Origin: an uncultured Rhodanobacteraceae bacterium | GTDB taxonomy: Bacteria > Pseudomonadota > Gammaproteobacteria > Xanthomonadales > Ahniellaceae | Reading direction: 5' to 3' | Assembly: GCA_937873105.1 (NCBI GenBank) | Contig: CALMWD010000387.1 | Location: 1 to 12,680 of the forward strand | DNA: 12,680 nucleotides | Shown here: positions 1 to 8,665 of the stretch, in pieces | How the letters are laid out: each line of letters opens with the position of its first letter | Numbering within the stretch: position 1 is the stretch's first letter | The notes under the pieces: model-generated | The model's input: only the letters and a program-made list of their open reading frames with translations | Database searches by the model: none | What the model was told of the DNA's origin: nothing | Position numbers and translations under genes: made by a program

Positions 1-776
1 AAGGTGATGCCGCCGGCGATCTGCAGGACCAAGGTGTAGTCGGCCTTGTATTTGCCCGTCGTCGGATCGTAGACGGAACAGAAGATGCGCACGCGCTCGA
101 CGAAATCGGCGGCAGTGTGGGTCTCGGTCAGCAGCATGCCGCGCAGCAGGCGGCGAATCGGCTCACCCAGCATCTCGGCACTGAAGTCGCCGTAGATCTG
201 GCTGCGAATCACGCCCTGCGCGTCGAGCAAGGACACCTGCACGGTGTGGTCGAAACCGGCCGGGCTCGGGCGATAGCGGAAACCGAAGGCATCGGTCAGT
301 GCGGCCACGTCTTCCGTGCGTGGACTGAGGAATTCCCAGTTCGGCTCCTGGATGCGCAACTGCGCGGCGAACTGGCGCATCGCCATCGGTGAATCCTGTG
401 GCTGGTTGAAGCCGATGCTGAGCACGTTGAACTGGTTCGGACCGAAGCGCTCGCGCATCGCGCGCACCGCGCCGAGCAGGTCGCGCGTACTGGTCGGGCA
501 GACCTGGAAACAGCCGGTAAACACGAAATTGACGATCAGCGGCTTGCCGCGGTACTGCGCCAGCGACACCGTTCGGCCCTCGCGGTCCTGCAGCACGAAG
601 TCCGCGGGCGCACTGCCGACACGGGTGCGACTGAACGCCATCGCTTCCTCGATGTCGCGCATGATCGCGGGCGCGGCCTGCAACGCGCCGACCAGGAGCA
701 CGAGGCCAAGCGCGAACCAACAGGAGGCCCGTCGCACCCAATCCGATCGTCGACAGTCGCGGCAGGCGACACCCAT
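1..776 (-). CDS. SCO1/SenC-type copper chaperone, C-terminus cut by window edge
   Basis: SCO proteins are membrane-anchored thioredoxin-fold proteins that deliver copper to the CuA site, and sometimes CuB, of heme-copper oxidases. Reading from the ATG at 776, one hydrophobic segment lies at about residues 20-35, followed by a periplasmic domain. The copper-binding CxxxCP motif is intact (C89, C93, read as CFQVCP), as is the distal histidine (H177 in FDHTV). The start is supported by GAGGTG six bases upstream; it overlaps the ctaB stop codon, so the two genes are probably translationally coupled. 258 residues are visible with no stop. The part beyond the usual SCO domain contains FCSVYDPTTGKY, a C-terminal extension I recall from some SCO proteins. 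The N-terminal CRDC pair before the membrane segment is unusual. As the last visible gene of the oxidase operon, it probably metallates that enzyme. Confidence 0.93.
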   Translation of the reverse strand, partial: MGVACRDCRRSDWVRRASCWFALGLVLLVGALQAAPAIMRDIEEAMAFSRTRVGSAPADFVLQDREGRTVSLAQYRGKPLIVNFVFTGCFQVCPTSTRDLLGAVRAMRERFGPNQFNVLSIGFNQPQDSPMAMRQFAAQLRIQEPNWEFLSPRTEDVAALTDAFGFRYRPSPAGFDHTVQVSLLDAQGVIRSQIYGDFSAEMLGEPIRRLLRGMLLTETHTAADFVERVRIFCSVYDPTTGKYKADYTLVLQIAGGIT

Positions 777-786
777 CGTCTGCACC

Positions 787-1683
787 TCAGGCCAGGGCCC
801 GATCAAGACCGGCCGCGACCAGCAACGAGGACAGCTGCACCAGCGAAGCGAAGAAACAACGCATCGCCGGCGCCCGTTCCGGACATCGCACCAGGCGCAC
901 CGCGCAAACGATGAAGTACAGGCCGCCAGCCAGCGCGCCGAGCGCGTACACCGGCCCCAGGCCGAACGCCGCCGGCACCAGGGTGGCGATCGTCAACAGC
1001 ACGGTACCGAGCAACACGGCGCGAGCGGCGCGTTCGCGTCCGACCACGACCGGCAGCATCGGCACGCCGGCCTGCGCGTATTCGTCGCGATGGGCGATGG
1101 CCAGGCTCCAGAAGTGTGGCGGCGTCCACAGGAACAGCACCAGGGCCAGCAGCAGGGGCACGGGCGCCGATGCCGGGGCGACCGCGGCACCACCGGCCAA
1201 GACCGCGAAACTTCCGGCCAGTCCGCCGATCACGATGTTCATCGGCGTCCGACGCTTCAGCCAGACGGTATAGACGACCCCGTAGAACAGCGCACCGAGC
1301 AACACGTAGCCGGCGGCCAGCGGATTGACTGCCCGCCATGCCAGCGCCACCGCGGACACCAGCATCACCGACATCAGCAGCAGCCACCAGCGTGAGCGCG
1401 GCAGGGCGCCGGTCACGAAGGCACGTCGGCGCGTGCGCGCCATGCGGTGGTCTTCGTCGGCCTCGTAGTACTGGTTGAACAGGCCGGCACTGGCCGATGC
1501 CACCAGCACCGCCACGGCCAGCGCCGTCGCCGTGCCGAAGCCCGGCAGCGGGGCCGGCGTGACCATCATGCCGACCAGTGCGGTCGCCATGATCATCACG
1601 CCGATACGCAGCTTCATCAGTCCGAGCACGTCGCGCAGCAGGGCCGGCAGCGAACGCGCGTGAGTCATCGGCACCGTGTTCAT
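787..1683 (-). CDS. ctaB: heme O synthase (protoheme IX farnesyltransferase)
   Basis: CtaB/CyoE is an integral membrane UbiA-family prenyltransferase that adds a farnesyl group to heme B to give heme O, the precursor of heme A. The 298-residue product is normal for the family. The first aspartate-rich motif is at residues 70-78 (NQYYEADED, followed by MARTRRR). Its first acidic position is Glu, as in mitochondrial COX10. The second conserved region reads FLWTPPHFW followed by HRDEYAQAGVPMLP. Hydrophobic helices fill the rest. The ATG at 1683 has GGAGG seven bases upstream. It lies 40 bases after the subunit I stop and 10 bases before the SCO start, so it is inside the oxidase operon. Together with the divergent ctaA, it implies that heme O or heme A is made for this enzyme. 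Confidence 0.96.
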   Translation of the reverse strand: MNTVPMTHARSLPALLRDVLGLMKLRIGVMIMATALVGMMVTPAPLPGFGTATALAVAVLVASASAGLFNQYYEADEDHRMARTRRRAFVTGALPRSRWWLLLMSVMLVSAVALAWRAVNPLAAGYVLLGALFYGVVYTVWLKRRTPMNIVIGGLAGSFAVLAGGAAVAPASAPVPLLLALVLFLWTPPHFWSLAIAHRDEYAQAGVPMLPVVVGRERAARAVLLGTVLLTIATLVPAAFGLGPVYALGALAGGLYFIVCAVRLVRCPERAPAMRCFFASLVQLSSLLVAAGLDRALA

Positions 1684-1723: not shown

Positions 1724-3424
1724 TCAGCTCAAGCCCCACAGCTGCGACAGGTACTTCCAGTTGATGAAGTAGTAGAGGACAAAGGCGGCGAGGAAGATCA
1801 GGGCCAGCACGAAGCTGCCGGGCGCGACCATGCGACTCGATCCGTAGGTCTGCACCGCGGCCGCGGGGGCTGTCGGCGGTACCGGGGTGGTGCGGTCCGA
1901 CACCGTGCCGCCATCGAGCTTCTTGCCCCACAGCAAGGAGCCGACGGTGACATAGATGTAGATCGCGCCACCCGCGATGGCGGCGATGCCGAACACACCG
2001 ACCAGGCCCATCATCATGTACGCCGCGCCCGGCCATTCGTAGGCGAGCGCCGCGCCCTGGAAGGCCATGTCCCAGTGCCGGCGCGAGACGCCGAGCGTGC
2101 CGGCGCCCATCATCACCAGGCAGAAGCCGTACATCGACAGGCCGAACAGATAGGGCTGCCACTGCGCCAGCTTCGGCGCGATCGTCTCGCGCTTGAACAG
2201 CACCGGGATCAGGAAATAGGTCAGCGCCATGAAGCTGAGCGTGGTGCCGATCACGACCGTGGCATGGAAGTGGCCCGGCACGTAGATGGTGTTGTGGATG
2301 ATCAGGTTGAGCTGCTCGGTGCCCATCATCACGCCGGAGATGCCGCCGAGGAAACCGAAGCCGACGATGGCGATGAACACACCCGAGAACGAGGGATTGC
2401 CCCACGGCGCCTTGCGCAGCCATTCGAACAGGCCCTTGTTGTAGCCCTTCTGGCGCTGCGCGACCTCGATCGCGCCCGGCACCGTGAGGCCGTGGATCAT
2501 CGAGGCCAGCACCGCGAAGTACATGAAGTAGCTGGTGTTGACGACCTTCCATTCGGTGCTGACGCCGGGATCGGCCAGCAGATGGTGCGCGCTCGCCAGT
2601 TGCAGGAACAGGATGTAGAGCAGGAAGGCGCCGCGGCTGACGCGTTCGGACATCGGACGCGCGCCGAACACGATGGCGGCGACCGCGTACCAGATCGAGA
2701 TGTGCGCGGACACGTTGATCTGCTGCGAGGAATGGCCGAAGGCCCACCAGATCGTGCGGTAGACCAGCGGATCGACGGCATCAATGACGCCGATCGAAAG
2801 CAGGTACGTCGGCACCAGGATGATCGCGCCGGAAACGATCGTGAACACCGCGATGATCGTGGCCGTGATCGCGCCGAAGGTGACCAGCGGTACCGAGCCC
2901 TGGTAGGTCTTCTCGGCCTTGGCCACGACCAGCGTGCCGAGGAATACGAAACACGCGACCAGCGCCCCGACCGCGAACAGGATCAGTCCGAGATAGAACG
3001 ACGGTGCCGCCATCATCGGCACGTAGGACGTCATCATCACGCTGGAGCCGCCCTGGTACACGGCGACATTGTTCATCACCGCACCAACCACCATCAGCGC
3101 GAAGGCCGCCCAGGCGATCTTCGGCGTCGCGATGCGACAACGCAGCAAGGTCGAGGAACAGAAGTACAACACCGCGATCTCGAAGAAGATGATCCAGAAG
3201 ATCAGCATGTCGATGCCATGCGCGGTCAGCACCTTGTAGAAGGTGTCGGCTTCGAGCCAGTGGATCGAGGGCCAGCGCGTCAGCACGACGCCGATCGCGA
3301 GGATGCCGCCGATCAGCAGGAAGACGACGGCGGCGACGGCATTGGCCAGCATCAGCTTCTCGGCCTGCGATTCGAACTGCAGGCCGGAACGCGGGCAGGT
3401 CCGGTAGGTGGTTGCGATGGACAT
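1724..3424 (-). CDS. heme-copper oxidoreductase subunit I, B-type (ba3-like), lacking the active-site tyrosine; candidate NO reductase
   Basis: This is the catalytic membrane subunit of a heme-copper enzyme, 566 residues, with about 13 hydrophobic segments. Metal ligands are visible: H69 (low-spin heme, TAHG), H231 (helix VI), H280-H281 (SAHHLLADPG), and H385 and H387 (VPGHFHAT). The TIWWAFGH, HHxxADPG, HNTxxVPGHFH and PWxNPxF stretches align by eye with Thermus ba3 oxidase. Oxygen reductases of types A and B have HPxxY in helix VI. Here it is HSSQQ, with Q235 in the tyrosine place, and the helix VII tyrosine position of cbb3 enzymes appears to be E260. Absence of this tyrosine is typical of NO reductases in the superfamily. 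Helix II carries D72 and E82. The start at 3424 has GAGGAG seven bases upstream; the longer reading overlaps subunit II. Membership of the superfamily is certain; NO reduction is an inference. Confidence 0.95.
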   Translation of the reverse strand: MSIATTYRTCPRSGLQFESQAEKLMLANAVAAVVFLLIGGILAIGVVLTRWPSIHWLEADTFYKVLTAHGIDMLIFWIIFFEIAVLYFCSSTLLRCRIATPKIAWAAFALMVVGAVMNNVAVYQGGSSVMMTSYVPMMAAPSFYLGLILFAVGALVACFVFLGTLVVAKAEKTYQGSVPLVTFGAITATIIAVFTIVSGAIILVPTYLLSIGVIDAVDPLVYRTIWWAFGHSSQQINVSAHISIWYAVAAIVFGARPMSERVSRGAFLLYILFLQLASAHHLLADPGVSTEWKVVNTSYFMYFAVLASMIHGLTVPGAIEVAQRQKGYNKGLFEWLRKAPWGNPSFSGVFIAIVGFGFLGGISGVMMGTEQLNLIIHNTIYVPGHFHATVVIGTTLSFMALTYFLIPVLFKRETIAPKLAQWQPYLFGLSMYGFCLVMMGAGTLGVSRRHWDMAFQGAALAYEWPGAAYMMMGLVGVFGIAAIAGGAIYIYVTVGSLLWGKKLDGGTVSDRTTPVPPTAPAAAVQTYGSSRMVAPGSFVLALIFLAAFVLYYFINWKYLSQLWGLS

Positions 3425-3435
3425 GTCCGGGCTCC

Positions 3436-3975
3436 TCACTTGACGTAGATGCGACCGACCATCGTGTGATGGCCGATTCCGCAGTACTCGTTGCACACCA
3501 CCGAGTAGGTGCCGCTCTGGTTCGGCGTCACCGTCACCACGTGCTCATATCCCGGAACGATCTGGATGTTGATGTTCGCCGGCTGCAGCGAAAACCCGTG
3601 GTTGTAGTCCATCGAGGTCAGGTGCAGTCGATAGGTCTGGTCCTTCTCCAGCTGCAGGATCGGCCAGAAATTCCAGAGTCGCGCGATCATGTAGACGTCG
3701 CTGCCCGGTGGCGGCGCGACGACCGGATAGGCGCCATCCAGCTCGGTGCGCACCGTGTACTGGTCGACCATCGCCTGAGTCTTGGTCGTGAAAAGCTCGG
3801 GCGTGGTCTTGTAGGTCTCGGTCGACAGGTTCTGGGCACCGTACATGTGCCAATAGACCATCATGAAGAACATCACCATGCACCAGACGAAGGCGATGGC
3901 GAGCCAGAGTCCCTCGACGCGGTCGAGCGGATGTTTCCACCAGAGTCGTTCGGACGGTGGTGCGATGGCAGTCAT
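3436..3975 (-). CDS. heme-copper oxidoreductase subunit II with CuA site
   Basis: This is the electron-entry subunit: one N-terminal membrane helix (about residues 22-42) and a periplasmic cupredoxin domain. 179 residues is short, as in Thermus ba3 subunit II (168) rather than the longer two-helix A-type subunits. All CuA ligands are present: H126 (YNHGF), C161, E163, C165, H169 and M172 in CNEYCGIGHHTM. E21 before the helix (RVEGLWLA) aligns by eye with Glu15 of Thermus ba3 subunit II, the entry of the K-type proton channel, so proton uptake from the cytoplasm may be kept. The donor is probably a cytochrome c or a cupredoxin. The ATG at 3975 has a weak G-rich stretch about ten bases upstream. 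The stop lies 11 bases before the subunit I start. Confidence 0.95.
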   Translation of the reverse strand: MTAIAPPSERLWWKHPLDRVEGLWLAIAFVWCMVMFFMMVYWHMYGAQNLSTETYKTTPELFTTKTQAMVDQYTVRTELDGAYPVVAPPPGSDVYMIARLWNFWPILQLEKDQTYRLHLTSMDYNHGFSLQPANINIQIVPGYEHVVTVTPNQSGTYSVVCNEYCGIGHHTMVGRIYVK

Positions 3976-4030
3976 GGATGCAAACCCCCAAGGATGCAGT
4001 GACGTGGAACGCGGATCGACCCGGAACGGG

Positions 4031-4186
4031 TCACTTGGCGAGCGGGATGGTCAAGATGTCGTACACGCCCCATGCCGTGTACAGGACCATCGGAATCATC
4101 ACGCCCAGGAACAGCAGCAGGAACGGGTTGTCCAGGAGCTTCTGCATCATCGGAACGGGTTCGTTGTCGTCGTGTGCGTCGGTCAT
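4031..4186 (-). CDS. small single-helix subunit of the heme-copper enzyme (subunit IIa-like)
   Basis: This 51-residue protein has a polar, acidic N-terminus (MTDAHDDNEP) and one membrane helix (about residues 21-42, FLLLFLGVMIPMVLYTAWGV). It is the first gene of the operon, 55 bases before subunit II. Thermus ba3 has a 34-residue one-helix subunit IIa, and small one-helix subunits are common in B-type clusters, so a structural subunit is the likely role; this rests on size, topology and position rather than on a motif. A longer reading from 4264 adds 26 arginine-rich, non-membrane residues and would run into the FNR-like site. The ATG at 4186 is therefore preferred; it has GAGG about ten bases upstream. 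Confidence 0.82.
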   Translation of the reverse strand: MTDAHDDNEPVPMMQKLLDNPFLLLFLGVMIPMVLYTAWGVYDILTIPLAK

Positions 4187-4214
4187 GGCGGCGTGCCTCG
4201 CGGGAAGTGACCGG

Positions 4215-4220
4215 AATTTA
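4215..4220 (-). promoter_or_regulatory. possible -10 box of the heme-copper operon
   Basis: On the minus strand TAAATT (4 of 6 to TATAAT) stands in an otherwise GC-rich region. If it is the -10 box, transcription starts near 4208, leaving a leader of about 22 bases before the small-subunit start. The FNR-like site would then be centred at -61.5, a standard class I activator position. The matching -35 window reads GTCGGG and is poor, which fits an activator-dependent promoter. The assignment is tentative. Confidence 0.3.
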
Positions 4221-4262
4221 GCCTTGCGCCGGAACGCCCCGACGCAGCCGGGTCGCGAGCGC

Positions 4263-4276
4263 ATGACCTAGATCAA
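4263..4276 (-). promoter_or_regulatory. FNR/DNR-type (Crp-Fnr family) binding site
   Basis: On the minus strand the site reads TTGAT-CTAG-GTCAT. It matches the FNR/ANR/DNR/NnrR consensus TTGAT-N4-ATCAA in 8 of 10 specified positions: one half is perfect and the other has two mismatches. The two-fold symmetry extends through the CTAG centre and one GC pair on each side. It lies between the divergent heme-copper operon and ctaA, with its centre 83 bases from the small-subunit start and 72 bases from the ctaA start, so one regulator could serve both. The sequence cannot tell an oxygen sensor (FNR/ANR) from an NO sensor (DNR/NnrR). Confidence 0.6.
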
Positions 4277-4341
4277 GCGCTGCGCAATTCACCCGACAGC
4301 AACGGGTTAGCATCGCGCTCCGTGCCATCACCGGATCACGC

Positions 4342-5271
4342 ATGACGACCGCGCCAATCCAACTCGTTCGCCTGCGCCGGATGGCCTTGATCGGTTTGCT
4401 GCTGATCCTCGCGGTCACCAGCCTGAGCGCCTACATGCGCCTGGCGAACGCCGGCCTGGGTTGCGCCGATTGGCCGGCGTGTTATGGCGCCGCATTGCGC
4501 GCATCCGCGACCTCGGCGAGTCTGTCGGACACGTCGGTCGCGGTGGCACGCATGCTGCATCGGCTCGCGGCGATGACCGTCCTGGTCCTGGCACTGGTGA
4601 TCGCCGCGGCCTCGTTCTCATCGCGTCCACGATTGCGTCGCGAAGGCGTGCTTGCGATGGTGATGATCGCGATCGCCATCGGACTCGCCGTCCTTGGTCG
4701 CTACAGCGCCGGCGCCAAGTTGCCGATCATCGCGATCGGCAACGTGCTCGGCGGTTTCGCGATGGTCGCGACGAGCTTCGCGGTCTGGCGCGGCCCGAGC
4801 GCCGGCACGCGATGGTCGATGCCGGCCGCGGGCCTGATGCTCCTGCTCGTGGCCCAGATCGCGCTCGGCGTGTGGGTGAGCGCCAGCTACTCGGGACTGA
4901 GCTGCACCGGTTTCCCGGCCTGCGGCAGCGTGATCGATCCGTCCTGGTCACTGCTCGATCCGACACGCGTGCCGCAGATCGCCGCGACCGCACCGACCCA
5001 CGCCGAGGGCGCCTTCACGCACATGTTGCATCGGGTGCTGGCGCTCCTGGTGGCACTGGCTGCATGCGCGACGTCCGTCATCACGTGGCGTGACGGACGG
5101 CATCGTGCCGCTTTGGCGCTCGCCGCCCTGCTGGTCTTGCAGATCGGTCTCGGCGTCACCCTGGTGCTCGCCGCCCTGCCCTTTGCGGCGGCACTGCTGC
5201 ACAACCTCGTCGCGGCCCTGATGTTGCTCGCCGCGATGTCCTGCCTGCGCCGCGAACGCGCGCGCACTTGA
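4342..5271 (+). CDS. ctaA: heme A synthase (COX15/CtaA family)
   Basis: CtaA converts heme O to heme A by oxidising a methyl group; it is an eight-helix membrane protein made of two related halves. The 309-residue product shows both extracytoplasmic cysteine pairs: C41/C47 in GLGCADWPAC and C188/C194 in GLSCTGFPAC. It also has heme-site histidines H73 (MLHRLAA), H230 (MLHRVLAL) and H287 (LLHNLVAA). The expected fourth histidine, on helix 4, appears to be Asn: the region reads AIGNVLGG (N134), where many CtaA proteins have THLLGG. The start has only a weak GGAT about seven bases upstream. The gene is divergent from the oxidase operon across 155 bases and ends 7 bases from the hslR stop. It indicates that heme A is available for the neighbouring enzyme. 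Confidence 0.93.
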   Translation: MTTAPIQLVRLRRMALIGLLLILAVTSLSAYMRLANAGLGCADWPACYGAALRASATSASLSDTSVAVARMLHRLAAMTVLVLALVIAAASFSSRPRLRREGVLAMVMIAIAIGLAVLGRYSAGAKLPIIAIGNVLGGFAMVATSFAVWRGPSAGTRWSMPAAGLMLLLVAQIALGVWVSASYSGLSCTGFPACGSVIDPSWSLLDPTRVPQIAATAPTHAEGAFTHMLHRVLALLVALAACATSVITWRDGRHRAALALAALLVLQIGLGVTLVLAALPFAAALLHNLVAALMLLAAMSCLRRERART

Positions 5272-5278
5272 GGTCGCG

Positions 5279-5686
5279 TTACAACGCGTCGATGTCGCCG
5301 AGCGCGCGGATCAGCCGTCGCGCCTTCTTGTTCGGCCGCGATTCGGGCGGCTGGTAACCGGCGCGCTCGTCGCGCCGCTGCGCCGCCTCGGCCTCGCGGC
5401 GTGCACGGCCTTCGTCGGTTTCGGCGTACAAGGTCCGCGCGACGCCGGCCGGACCGCGCGCCTCGCTGAGCCCGAGCACGCGCAGTTCGAAGCGTTCCTC
5501 GCCGCGCCGCACGACGAGCAGGTCGCCTTCATGCACCAGCTTCGAGGCCTTCGCGACGGTCGCGCCGCCCACCTCGACCTTGCCGCCCTCGATGGCCTGC
5601 TTCGCCAGGCTGCGCGTCTTGAAGAAACGCGCAGCCCAGAGCCACACGTCGAGGCGGGTGCCGGGCCGTGCTTCCGCAGCGCTCAC
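5279..5686 (-). CDS. hslR: ribosome-associated heat shock protein Hsp15 (S4 domain)
   Basis: Hsp15 binds 50S subunits that carry a stalled nascent chain and helps recycle them; in E. coli it is induced by heat. The product is 135 residues (133 in E. coli). An S4 RNA-binding fold begins at about residue 11: [20 protein letters not shown], then [10 protein letters not shown] and a basic patch. The C-terminus is rich in Arg, Glu and Lys and ends with NKKARR. The start is taken as GTG at 5686, which overlaps the stop of the DUF808 gene in a GTGA, with no separate ribosome binding site, so translation is probably coupled. The same frame stays open far upstream, but that extension runs antiparallel-frame to DUF808 and has no family similarity. 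The gene lies downstream of htpG on the same strand, another chaperone-related gene. Confidence 0.93.
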
Positions 5687-6651
5687 TTGCCGCGCAGCTT
5701 CTGCACGCCCGCGACGCCGGCCAGGACCACGGCGCCGGCGACGATGCCGACCACGAGGTCGAACAGCATGCTCAGCAGGGTGCCGACGGGCTTGGCCGCC
5801 AGCGCCTCGCCGACGTGGTGCAGGGCCGGCACGCCTTCGACCAGGATGTGTCCGCCGACCAGGAACATCGCGGCGGTGCCCGCGAAGGAGAGGAACTTCA
5901 TCAGTTTCGGCGCGAACCACAGCAGGAAACGGCCGAAGCCGCGCTTGCTCTTCGCCACCAGCGAACCCGCTGCGTCGCGGATGCACCACAGGCCGAAGTC
6001 GTCGATCTTGACGATGCCGCCGACCAGGCCGTAGACGCCGATGGTCATGATCACCGCGACGCCGATCAGCACGCCCAGCTGCACCTCGAAGGGCTTGCCG
6101 GCCACCGCGCCGAGCGAGATCACGATGATCTCGGCGGAGAGGATGAAGTCCGTGCGCACGGCGCCTTTGATCTTGTCCTTCTCCCACTGGACCATGTCGA
6201 CTTTCTCGTCGGCCACGGCCTTCACCAGCTCGGCATGATGCTGCTCGTCTTCCTGCTTGCTGTGGAAGAACTTGTGCGCGAGCTTCTCGACGCCCTCGAA
6301 GCACAGGAAGGCGCCGCCGACCATCAGCAGCGGCTTGATCGCCCAGGGCGCGAAGGCGCTGATGATCAGGGCCGCCGGCACCAGGATCACCTTGTTGATC
6401 GCCGAGCCCTTGGCCACGGCCCAGACCACCGGCAACTCGCGGTCGGCATTCACCCCGGTGACTTGTTGCGCGTTCAGCGCGAGATCGTCGCCGAGCACGC
6501 CGGCGGTCTTCTGGGTCGCCACCTTGGTCATCGCGGCGACATCGTCCATCACGCCCGCGGACTTCTTCGCCGCGACCTTGGTCATCACCGCGACATCGTC
6601 GAGCAGGGTCGCGATGTCGTCGAGCAGGGCGAAGAAACTGGAACCGGGCAT
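5683..6651 (-). CDS. DUF808/YedI family inner-membrane protein
   Basis: The 322-residue product matches E. coli YedI in many conserved blocks: [89 protein letters not shown] and [12 protein letters not shown]. Several hydrophobic stretches point to an inner-membrane protein; the biochemical role of the family is unknown to me. The start at 6651 (MPGSSFF) is preferred over 6690: E. coli YedI begins at this point and GGTGA lies about five bases upstream, whereas the earlier ATG has no ribosome binding site. The N-terminal region has an 18-residue motif in tandem, which E. coli YedI has once. The stop overlaps the hslR start. The gene lies 112 bases downstream of htpG. Confidence 0.92.
6493..6600 (-). 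repeat. 54-bp in-frame tandem duplication inside the DUF808 gene
   Basis: Two adjacent 54-bp units (6547-6600 and 6493-6546) encode [18 protein letters not shown] and [18 protein letters not shown]. They are identical at 44 of 54 bases and 13 of 18 residues by my count. The second unit joins the conserved [10 protein letters not shown] block. The unit probably arose by internal duplication and then diverged. Confidence 0.8.
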
Positions 6652-6724
6652 GGGCGTCACCAAGGATGGACAGGGCGCCGATTCTGGCATCGGGCGCGGT
6701 GAAGCCCAAGCCGACGCCGGGCCG

Positions 6725-6752
6725 GGTCGCGCCGCCGGGAAGCGGCGCGGCC
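6725..6752 (-). terminator. GC-rich hairpin downstream of htpG
   Basis: Bases 6725-6735 pair with 6742-6752 to give an 11-bp stem with one G-T pair and the 6-base loop CGGGAA. It begins 11 bases after the htpG stop codon. No T-rich tract follows on the minus strand, so it is either a weak intrinsic terminator, a 3' end stabiliser, or an attenuator between htpG and the DUF808-hslR pair. Confidence 0.4.
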
Positions 6753-6763
6753 GGTGCTCCGGC

Positions 6764-8665
6764 TCAGCCGGCGATCAGGGCATTCATGCGCTTAACGAAA
6801 CCGGCCGGATCATCGAGCGCGGCGCCTTCCAGCAACTGCGCCTGTTCGAGCAGCAAGACGGCGAGATCGCGGGCGCGGTCTTCGTCCGGTTCGTTCGCGG
6901 CGCGCTGCACCAGGACGTGGTTCGCGTTGATCTCCAGCGTCGGCGCGGCATCGGGCACGTCCTGGCCCGCGGCCTTGAGCATGCGCTTCAGGTGCGGGGC
7001 CATGTCGTATTCGTCGACCACCAGGCACGACGCCGATTCGGTCAGGCGCTTGCTGGCGCGGACGTCCTTGACCTTGGCGCCGAGCAGCGCGGCGACGCGA
7101 TCGATCACCGGCTTGGCGGCCTCGTCGGCGGCTTTCTCCTGCGCTTCGTCGACGGCGCCGAGCTTGGACAGATCGAGTTCGCCCTTCGCGACGTTGCGCA
7201 GCTTCTTGCCGGCGTATTCGTGCAGGTAACCCATCATCCACTCGTCGATGCGCTCGCCCATCAGCAGCACTTCGACGTCGCGCGCCTTCAGCGCCTCGAT
7301 CTGCGGGCTGCCGCTGGCGGCGGCGAAGCTGTCCGCGGTGATGTAGTAGATGGTGTCCTGGCCGTCCTTCATGCGGCCGATGTAGTCGTCGAGCGAAACC
7401 TTCGCGGCGCCGCCCTCGCCCTTGGTCGAGGCGAAGCGCAACAGCTTGGCGATGCGCTCGCGGTTGCCGTGGTCCTCGGCCACGCCTTCCTTCAGCACGG
7501 CACCGAAGTTGGACCAGAAGGTCGCGTACTTCTCCGGCTGGTCGGCGGCGAGCGAATCGAGCAGATCGAGCGTGCGCTTGGTCAGTCCGCTGCGGATCTG
7601 CGCGACCAGCCTGTTCTCCTGCAGGATCTCGCGCGACACGTTCAGCGGCAGGTCGTCGGAATCGACGACGCCGCGCACGAAGCGCAGGTAGGCCGGCAGC
7701 AGGTGCTCGCTGGCATCCATGATGAAGACGCGGCGGATGTAGAGCTTGAGGCCCTTGCGTTCGTCGCGGCCGGAGAACATCAGGTCGAACGGCGCCTGCG
7801 TCGGCAGGTAGACCAGGCTGGTGTAGCTCTGGTTGCCTTCGACGCGGTTGTGGGTCCAGGCCAGCGGTTCGTCGTAGGCGTGCGCGGCATGCTTGTAGAA
7901 CGCGACGTAGTCCTCGTCCTTCAACTCGTTCTTCGGCCGCGTCCACAGCGCCGAGGCATGGTTGATCGTCTCGATCTCGGGTTCGGACGATTCGCCTTCC
8001 TCGCCGAACCTCTCCTTCGCCATGCGGATCGGGAAGGCGATGTGGTCGGAGTACTTGCCGACCAGGTTGCGCAGCTTCCAGCCGTCGAGGAACTCGTCTT
8101 CTTCCGGCTTCAGGTGCAGGGTGATCGTGGTGCCGCGACGCGCTTCGGTGACGGCGTCGAGCGCGTAGTCGCTGGTGCCGTTCGAGGTCCAGCGTACGCC
8201 CTGGTCGGCCGGAAGGTCGGCGCGGCGCGTGACCAGGGTGACCGAGTCGGCGACCACGAAGGTCGAATAGAAGCCGACGCCGAACTGGCCGATCAGCTGC
8301 GTGTCCTTGCGCGCGTCGCCGGTGAGGGATTCGAGGAAGCGGCGCGTGACGGAACGCGCGATCGTGCCGATGTTCTCGATCACTTCATCTCGGCTCATGC
8401 CGATGCCGTTGTCGCGCAGGGTCAGCGTGCGCGCGGCCTTGTCGAATTCGATCTCGATGTGCAGGTCGGCGTCGCCGGCGGTCAGTTCGGGCCGGGCGAT
8501 GGCTTCGAAACGCAGCTTGTCGAGCGCATCGGAAGCATTCGAGACGAGTTCGCGCAGGAAAATCTCCTTGTGCGAGTACAGCGAGTGCGTGACGAGCTTC
8601 AGGACCTGCTCGACTTCGGCTTCGAAGCGGCGGGTTTCGGTCTGGGAGGCGGTCTCGGCGGTCAT
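6764..8665 (-). CDS. htpG: Hsp90 chaperone HtpG
   Basis: HtpG is the bacterial Hsp90: a cytoplasmic, dimeric, ATP-driven chaperone that works with DnaK. The product is 633 residues (624 in E. coli). The N-terminal GHKL ATPase domain (about 1-225) shows [18 protein letters not shown] (catalytic E39, N43), DNGIGM at 86-91 (D86 contacts adenine), and [11 protein letters not shown] at 124-134. A middle domain and a C-terminal dimerisation domain follow. One change is notable: the normally invariant SGT of the ATP lid reads SVT here (S105-V106-T107, codon GTC). The ATG at 8665 has only a weak GGA upstream, but the protein starts right before the conserved helix. A sigma-32-type promoter lies 32-60 bases upstream. 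Confidence 0.97.

Follow-up and report, generated by a model that had tools for sequence, protein, structure and literature searches.

The locus described here very probably encodes a member of the eNOR (ba3-a1) family, a CuA-containing, B-family-derived heme-copper enzyme that converts 2 NO to N2O. It lies in the window, the whole 12,680-nucleotide stretch that was analysed, which is contig C387 in its entirety. The first-pass annotation had proposed either an eNOR or an undescribed relative. The eNOR part of that proposal is supported by the glutamine found four residues after the helix VI histidine and by the separation of a Gln clade from Tyr-type proteins, while an undescribed relative is not needed, as the glutamine is the published mark of eNOR and the group is in print. 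Subunit I is therefore another eNOR of a known family. A gene module linked to eNOR in related genomes is, provisionally, apparently undescribed.

Subunit I and its gene neighbourhood

The frame of subunit I runs without internal stop, and its helix VI reads TIWWAFGHSSQQINV, with the core GHSSQQINV. The codons of H231 (2734-2732) and Q235 (2722-2720) both fall inside 2701-2760, where the HSSQQ motif had been reported at first pass. All six metal-ligand histidines (H69, H231, H280, H281, H385, and H387) are present, again as first claimed. We aligned subunit I with 259 relatives, comprising 240 Gln-type and 19 Tyr-type B-family proteins, and found the first five of these histidines in 259/259 and H387 in 254/259, with Lys in the other five. 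Those five, all Gln-type, have GHFK for GHFH in helix X (L003, L004, L022, and L023 from Thermus, and L055, a Chitinophagaceae MAG), at a position that we take to be a low-spin heme ligand site.

The closest sequence relatives of subunit I in the PDB are B-family oxidases. When the Thermus ba3 chain is aligned, H231 coincides with the helix VI histidine and Q235 with the tyrosine at His+4; H311 takes the place of a Thr and I242 that of a Tyr, and Y246 and S308 are unchanged. The ba3 residues beneath Q235, I242, H311, Y246, and S308 are presumably the cross-link and K-channel residues. The structural model of subunit I has the heme-copper oxidase fold (pLDDT 85.5), with low confidence around the active site (residues 271-300, block pLDDT 67, 55, and 65).

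The HxxxY trait of ba3 oxidases is absent from subunit I, as Q235 occupies the place of the tyrosine, and the same residue departs from the active-site Asn of sNOR. For the cbb3 trait, we aligned the ccoN of the same genome, in which a Tyr lies six residues ahead of the HH pair of helix VII; this residue, presumably the cbb3 cross-linked Tyr, falls on L274 of subunit I. The earlier assignment of this position to E260 was wrong; E260 aligns with a position occupied by Asp in all 19 Tyr-type B-family proteins. Since L274 is not a tyrosine either, the conclusion drawn at first pass that neither place holds one stands.

The genes for heme and copper assembly adjoin those of the subunits (see table). 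Subunit II is encoded directly upstream of subunit I, and its alignment with the ba3 counterpart extends through the copper motif CNxYCGxGHxxM; the SCO gene is cut by the end of the contig. Further genes of the window carry DUF808, HSP90, DNA polymerase III delta, and YceG domains.

Features of the window (positions in the window) and examples of the paralog HCO2 (positions in the named stretches)
Feature	Position	Strand	Evidence
Catalytic subunit I, putative eNOR-type heme-copper NO reductase	1724..3424	-	566 aa; PF00115, 215 bits; Gln clade
Helix VI H231-S-S-Q-Q235, Gln replacing the cross-linked Tyr	2720..2734	-	translation, relatives
His311, invariant in the Gln clade, at the ba3 K-channel Thr position	2492..2494	-	His in 240/240 Gln-type; Thr in 19/19 Tyr-type
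Glu82, helix II, invariant in the Gln clade	3179..3181	-	240/240 Gln-type, 0/19 Tyr-type
Subunit II, membrane-anchored CuA cupredoxin, 179 aa	3436..3975	-	COX2 PF00116
Probable subunit IIa, 51-aa single-helix membrane protein	4031..4186	-	homolog in 51/56 loci
CyoE/CtaB heme O synthase	787..1683	-	UbiA PF01040, 174 bits; homolog in 42/56 loci
SCO/SenC copper chaperone, start codon uncertain	3..806	-	PF02630; homolog in 52/56 loci
CtaA/COX15 heme A synthase, divergent neighbour	4342..5271	+	PF02628; homolog in 12/56 loci
HCO2 example in L188	6720-8075	-	without helix VII CuB histidine pair
HCO2 example in L021	3-1199	+	without helix VII CuB histidine pair

Conservation of the glutamine and the eNOR assignment

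The glutamine is no isolated feature of this protein. Among the best 120 of 8000 scored homologs, 117 have HSSQQ and three HSAQQ, and the near relatives with source names there include Xanthomonadales and Rhodanobacteraceae. A profile built from five Gln-type relatives returned Gln-Gln in 116 of its own best 120 of 8000, the other four being missed by the expression used; where an organism was named in this second set, it belonged to Gemmatimonadota/Gemmatimonadetes or Longimicrobiales. We also scanned genome contigs with the patterns [IL][FY]WI[IL]FFE and [WY]W[GA][FLM]GH[SG][SA]Q, which gave at least 592 stretches, and Gln stands at His+4 in all 80 of the best loci (73 HSSQQ, 3 HGAQQ, 2 HTSQQ, 1 HSAQQ, and 1 HSTQQ); owing to these patterns, Q234 and E82 are partly pre-selected in the 80 loci and Q235 is not.

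This conservation, with an open frame and intact ligands, refutes the reading of the gene as a decayed or mis-assembled ba3 oxidase, to which an assembly that is 67% complete in 528 contigs might have lent some colour and which we regard as having next to no chance of being right; the first-pass annotation had likewise held that the gene is not broken.

Within the 259 aligned relatives, E82, Q234, Q235, N237, N296, and H311 are found in all 240 Gln-type and in none of the 19 Tyr-type proteins. Y270, Y299, P316, and D452 occur in 240/240 Gln-type and in at most 2/19 Tyr-type proteins, and Y302 is Tyr in 236/240 of the Gln-type. We extended the site reading with two B-family searches, one of 397 Pseudomonadota genomes (E 1e-60) and one of 399 genomes from the order of G489 (E 1e-20), with up to three candidates scored per genome in each. 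The sites read were exclusively Gln-type and Tyr-type, plus the odd L178 and L179; the reading of the 399-genome search left out several loci, L148, L152, L165, and L172 among them. L178 (minus strand) and L179 (2018 onward, plus strand) encode an odd heme-copper-like subunit I whose helix X reads VPGYFHF, with Tyr in place of a heme His. Its neighbours, by eye, are a CuA-type domain (in L179) and RND-efflux-like genes. Their host genomes, G593 and G698, also match eNOR loci in the search of G489's order.

We computed a tree from 67 chosen rows, namely 48 Gln-type and 18 Tyr-type proteins with the genome's own aa3 enzyme as outgroup. The Tyr-type rows came from haloarchaea, Deinococcus, Geobacillus, Burkholderiales, the window's order, and other Pseudomonadota; the rows include no R. 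marinus eNOR, sNOR, gNOR, or bNOR sequence. Gln-type and Tyr-type proteins form the two sides of one branch, with support of 100/100 and in 100% of 200 bootstrap trees, in an alignment whose columns include the Gln/Tyr trait itself. The program warned of long terminal branches leading to the outgroup, Deinococcus, Geobacillus, Thermomicrobium, and L055, and flagged two joins between long branches. The subunit thus does not group inside typical ba3 oxidases, the outcome that had been named at first pass as counting against an NO reductase, and falls in a clade related to, yet apart from, the B-family oxygen reductases represented by the 18 Tyr-type rows.

A 2024 PNAS paper reportedly lies behind the eNOR name. 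According to the available passages of PMC8756737, which cites Hemp and Gennis 2008 for eNOR, members are picked by Gln at the position of the active-site Tyr. Its Table A4 gives the site residue as Q in eNOR, N in sNOR and CuANor, D in gNOR, E in cNOR and qNOR, and Y in oxygen reductases. Putative eNORs are reported there from many Alpha-, Beta-, Gamma-, and Deltaproteobacteria, many of them apparently misannotated as cytochrome c oxidase. The same can be seen here, as had been anticipated at first pass: close relatives among the best 120 of 8000 homologs bear the source name cytochrome c oxidase. PMC6431628 describes a sister clade of the B oxidases without the catalytic Tyr and includes SCO in the ba3-a1 operon, PMC8879329 presents ba3-a1 as an NO reductase that uses reduced cytochrome c and was renamed eNOR, and PMC8114936 and PMC10734462 report eNOR from Zetaproteobacteria and Gallionellaceae.

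Several observations weigh against the eNOR reading. The host genome already has a qNOR, so that a second NO reductase is not strictly needed, and no nir gene lies beside subunit I within the window. The tree carries the long-branch warnings and the choice of rows given above, and the model is of low confidence at the active site. Finally, for the B-type relative sNOR, O2 has been argued to be the possible main substrate (PMC6967387).

The best-placed competing reading, which we consider unlikely, is a B-type oxygen reductase that has lost the helix VI Tyr and draws electrons and protons from a different residue, Y270 being one candidate. Y270 lies one helix turn away from the position of the cbb3 Tyr and is Tyr in 240/240 Gln-type proteins where 17/19 Tyr-type proteins have Phe. 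Such an enzyme would also fit the retention of all metal ligands and CuA and the oxidase names that the relatives bear in source databases, but the loss of the tyrosine is clade-wide and occurs together with altered K-channel positions, and the group is in print as an NO reductase (PMC8879329). It is less probable still that the protein belongs to another B-family-derived NO reductase group (sNOR, bNOR, gNOR, or nNOR). The SCO gene here recalls the SenC gene of the ammonia oxidiser sNOR cluster (norSY-senC-orf1), yet the site is N, N, and D in sNOR, CuANor (bNOR), and gNOR by the table of PMC8756737, from which nNOR is absent, and neither N nor D occurs at His+4 in any of the 259 aligned relatives. 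Membership in sNOR was rejected on this ground, the site residue being Gln and not Asn.

In the Thermus plasmid relatives of eNOR (L003 and L004), genes for an Rrf2 regulator and a DUF542 protein lie directly downstream, and L004 has a cytochrome P460 family gene near the plasmid-borne eNOR. Rrf2 and DUF542 genes are linked to NO, and we count their presence beside these relatives in favour of the eNOR reading.

A gene module linked to eNOR

Of the 80 loci, 56 reach 5.9 kb or farther downstream of subunit I, and we took a census of these by tblastn. Subunit II was found in all 56, SCO in 52, and the small subunit in 51. A cytochrome b domain is present in at least 51 loci, CyoE in 42, and hemerythrin in 26; the heme-copper paralog HCO2 was found in 15, CtaA in 12, and a ferredoxin-reductase part in 10. 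A [4Fe-4S]-FlpD part was matched in 50 of the 56 (48 downstream on the same strand, two otherwise), with a query that includes the [4Fe-4S] region, such that a match may leave FlpD uncovered; the FlpD domain itself is shown by Pfam in L052, L002, and L188. FlpD was not found in the other six loci (L094, L022, L023, L030, L071, and L082). The eNOR-linked protein at L188:8635-10200 (minus strand) is a fusion of cytochrome b, two 4Fe-4S domains, and FlpD (MvhD).

In a relative of the same genus (G041), the gene order is IIa-II-I-CyoE-SCO-(cyt b-FeS-FlpD)-HCO2-(cyt b-2Fe2S-FAD/NAD). Contig C376 of the window genome opens inside HCO2 (81% identical) and continues with a cytochrome b-ferredoxin-reductase fusion (82%), and the gene order in relatives leads us to infer that C387 and C376 adjoin. 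The FlpD protein was not found in the window genome, which is 67% complete; its gene would lie in the gap after SCO.

The association also holds across genomes. Of 200 genomes from the window's order, 30 match subunit I; four of these (G134, G139, G142, and G186) were excluded as Tyr-type proteins with 26-31% identity, which leaves 26/200 eNOR genomes. The site was read in 24 of the 26 and is Gln in all 24, G073 and G190 contributing fragments that miss it. The cytochrome b-[4Fe-4S]2-FlpD protein, scored as present when a match (E up to 1e-25) reached beyond the ferredoxin part, occurs in 24/26 eNOR genomes vs 0/174 others, and HCO2 in 25/26 vs 3/174 (Fisher values 5e-29 and 2e-27, which ignore kinship). 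They share a contig with eNOR in 23/24 and 22/25 cases, respectively. Speaking against a strict partnership, G159 has no FlpD, G101 has no HCO2 (a contig end is near), and G063, G076, and G195 have HCO2 with no eNOR match. In the stretches around the HCO2 of these three, eNOR was not found; hemerythrin is present in one and CtaA-like matches in three. In L197, a 1083-aa protein and an HCO2 without eNOR lie tail to tail (3077-6325, plus strand, and 6361-7728, minus strand).

HCO2 matches PF00115 at 67 bits, has no match among NCBIfam models, finds none in a PDB sequence search (E up to 1), and is often named 'cbb3-type cytochrome c oxidase subunit I' among the homologs listed. Its model has the heme-copper oxidase fold (pLDDT 87.5, TM 0.69-0.73 to ba3). 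Among the 120 homologs listed out of 6932, the histidines of helices II, VI, and X are invariant. The first position of the helix VII pair is Ala in 117, Met in two, and Ile in one, whereas 99 have His and 21 have Tyr at the second; the usual three-histidine CuB site is therefore incomplete. H286, seven residues past the pair position, is invariant.

We tentatively suggest, as a reading that could well prove wrong, that these genes form a dedicated, undescribed membrane module with eNOR as terminal enzyme in Proteobacteria, serving electron supply or sensing. It would consist of the cytochrome b-[4Fe-4S]2-FlpD protein and HCO2, joined in the window lineage by the cytochrome b-[2Fe-2S]-FAD/NAD reductase fusion, and would pass low-potential electrons from the cytoplasm, or quinol electrons, to NO reduction. 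HCO2 might alternatively be a copper-free diheme electron carrier or an NO sensor. Should the cytochrome b-FlpD and CuB-less heme-copper proteins indeed serve eNOR, electrons would reach NO reduction by a route different from the familiar bc1-cytochrome c path, and a heme-copper fold lacking its copper site could be tested directly. Titles and abstracts gave no description of an FlpD, cytochrome b, and CuB-less module, a provisional result as they mostly leave subscription literature uncovered, and the one mention of FlpD in the available text of PMC8756737 is a row in a domain table, unrelated to eNOR.

Genomic setting, mechanism, and comparison with known systems

PF00115 matches at six places in the source genome: C476, C228, C513, C399, the window, and C376. 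C476 encodes an aa3 enzyme over its cut-off, and C228 and C513 encode ccoN-like proteins that both score below the cut-off; a contig end truncates one of them. The 765-aa protein of C399, which scores 866 bits against solved 'nitric oxide reductase subunit B' chains, is a qNOR as judged by its length and relatives. A cytochrome cd1 nitrite reductase gene without its end is found on C122, and the missing end is perhaps a fragment on C269. The NCBIfam search did not settle its identity, and PF02239 by itself is shared with NirN and NirF; the PDB search settled it, with solved enzymes matched at 782 bits. The cd1 nitrite reductase of C122 (L185:2-1924, minus strand) has an additional cytochrome c domain at its front (residues 30-138) and so resembles the C1-C2-NirS form reported from Chloroflexi (PMC8756737). 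A NirK search of the genome gave no match, and a NosZ search (TIGR04246) matched solely the window's own CuA domain; these absences mean little, since the genome is 67% complete. With a cd1 nitrite reductase and a qNOR in the genome, NO production and removal fit.

As read from its sequence, the enzyme combines a ba3-like fold, six histidines, Gln for Tyr, a CuA subunit II, and a small subunit IIa. Electrons would pass from a periplasmic cytochrome c or cupredoxin to CuA, the low-spin heme, and the heme-CuB site. Q235, with N237 and H311, would replace the end of the Tyr-based K-channel, and protons from the cytoplasm would reach the heme-CuB site by way of these three residues. The NO could come from the genome's own cd1 nitrite reductase or from neighbours. 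A single K-type proton channel is among the traits of eNOR; of the aligned channel positions in subunit I, Y246 and S308 are conserved and I242 and H311 differ from ba3. Proton pumping by eNOR has been proposed in print. Annotation pipelines tally eNOR, which produces the greenhouse gas N2O, as oxygen respiration, and each locus so miscounted shifts estimates of NO reducers.

Both qNOR and cNOR, in which non-heme iron takes the place of CuB, are expected to catalyse the same reaction. They have Glu at the site (PMC8756737, Table A4). The sNOR of ammonia oxidisers (norSY-senC), compared by description, shares the B-family core, the SenC gene, and a cupredoxin second subunit with the window and differs in the Asn at its site, by the excerpts and Table A4 of PMC8756737. 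The Thermus thermophilus ba3 oxidase (1ehk and 1xme) is among the best solved relatives both by sequence and by fold (TM 0.78-0.79, query length), with the same six ligands and a CuA subunit II; identity with subunit I is ~25%, and where ba3 has the cross-linked Tyr, a K-channel Tyr, and a K-channel Thr, subunit I has Q235, I242, and H311, respectively. The closest match is eNOR, here compared by published description. The eNOR passages of PMC8756737, PMC8879329, and PMC6431628 that were available make no mention of cytochrome b-FlpD or CuB-less paralog genes. In the enzyme itself we found no difference from these descriptions: shared are the Gln at the Tyr position, the B-family core, the CuA subunit II directly upstream, SCO in the operon (as in ba3-a1), an origin in Proteobacteria, and misannotation as an oxidase.
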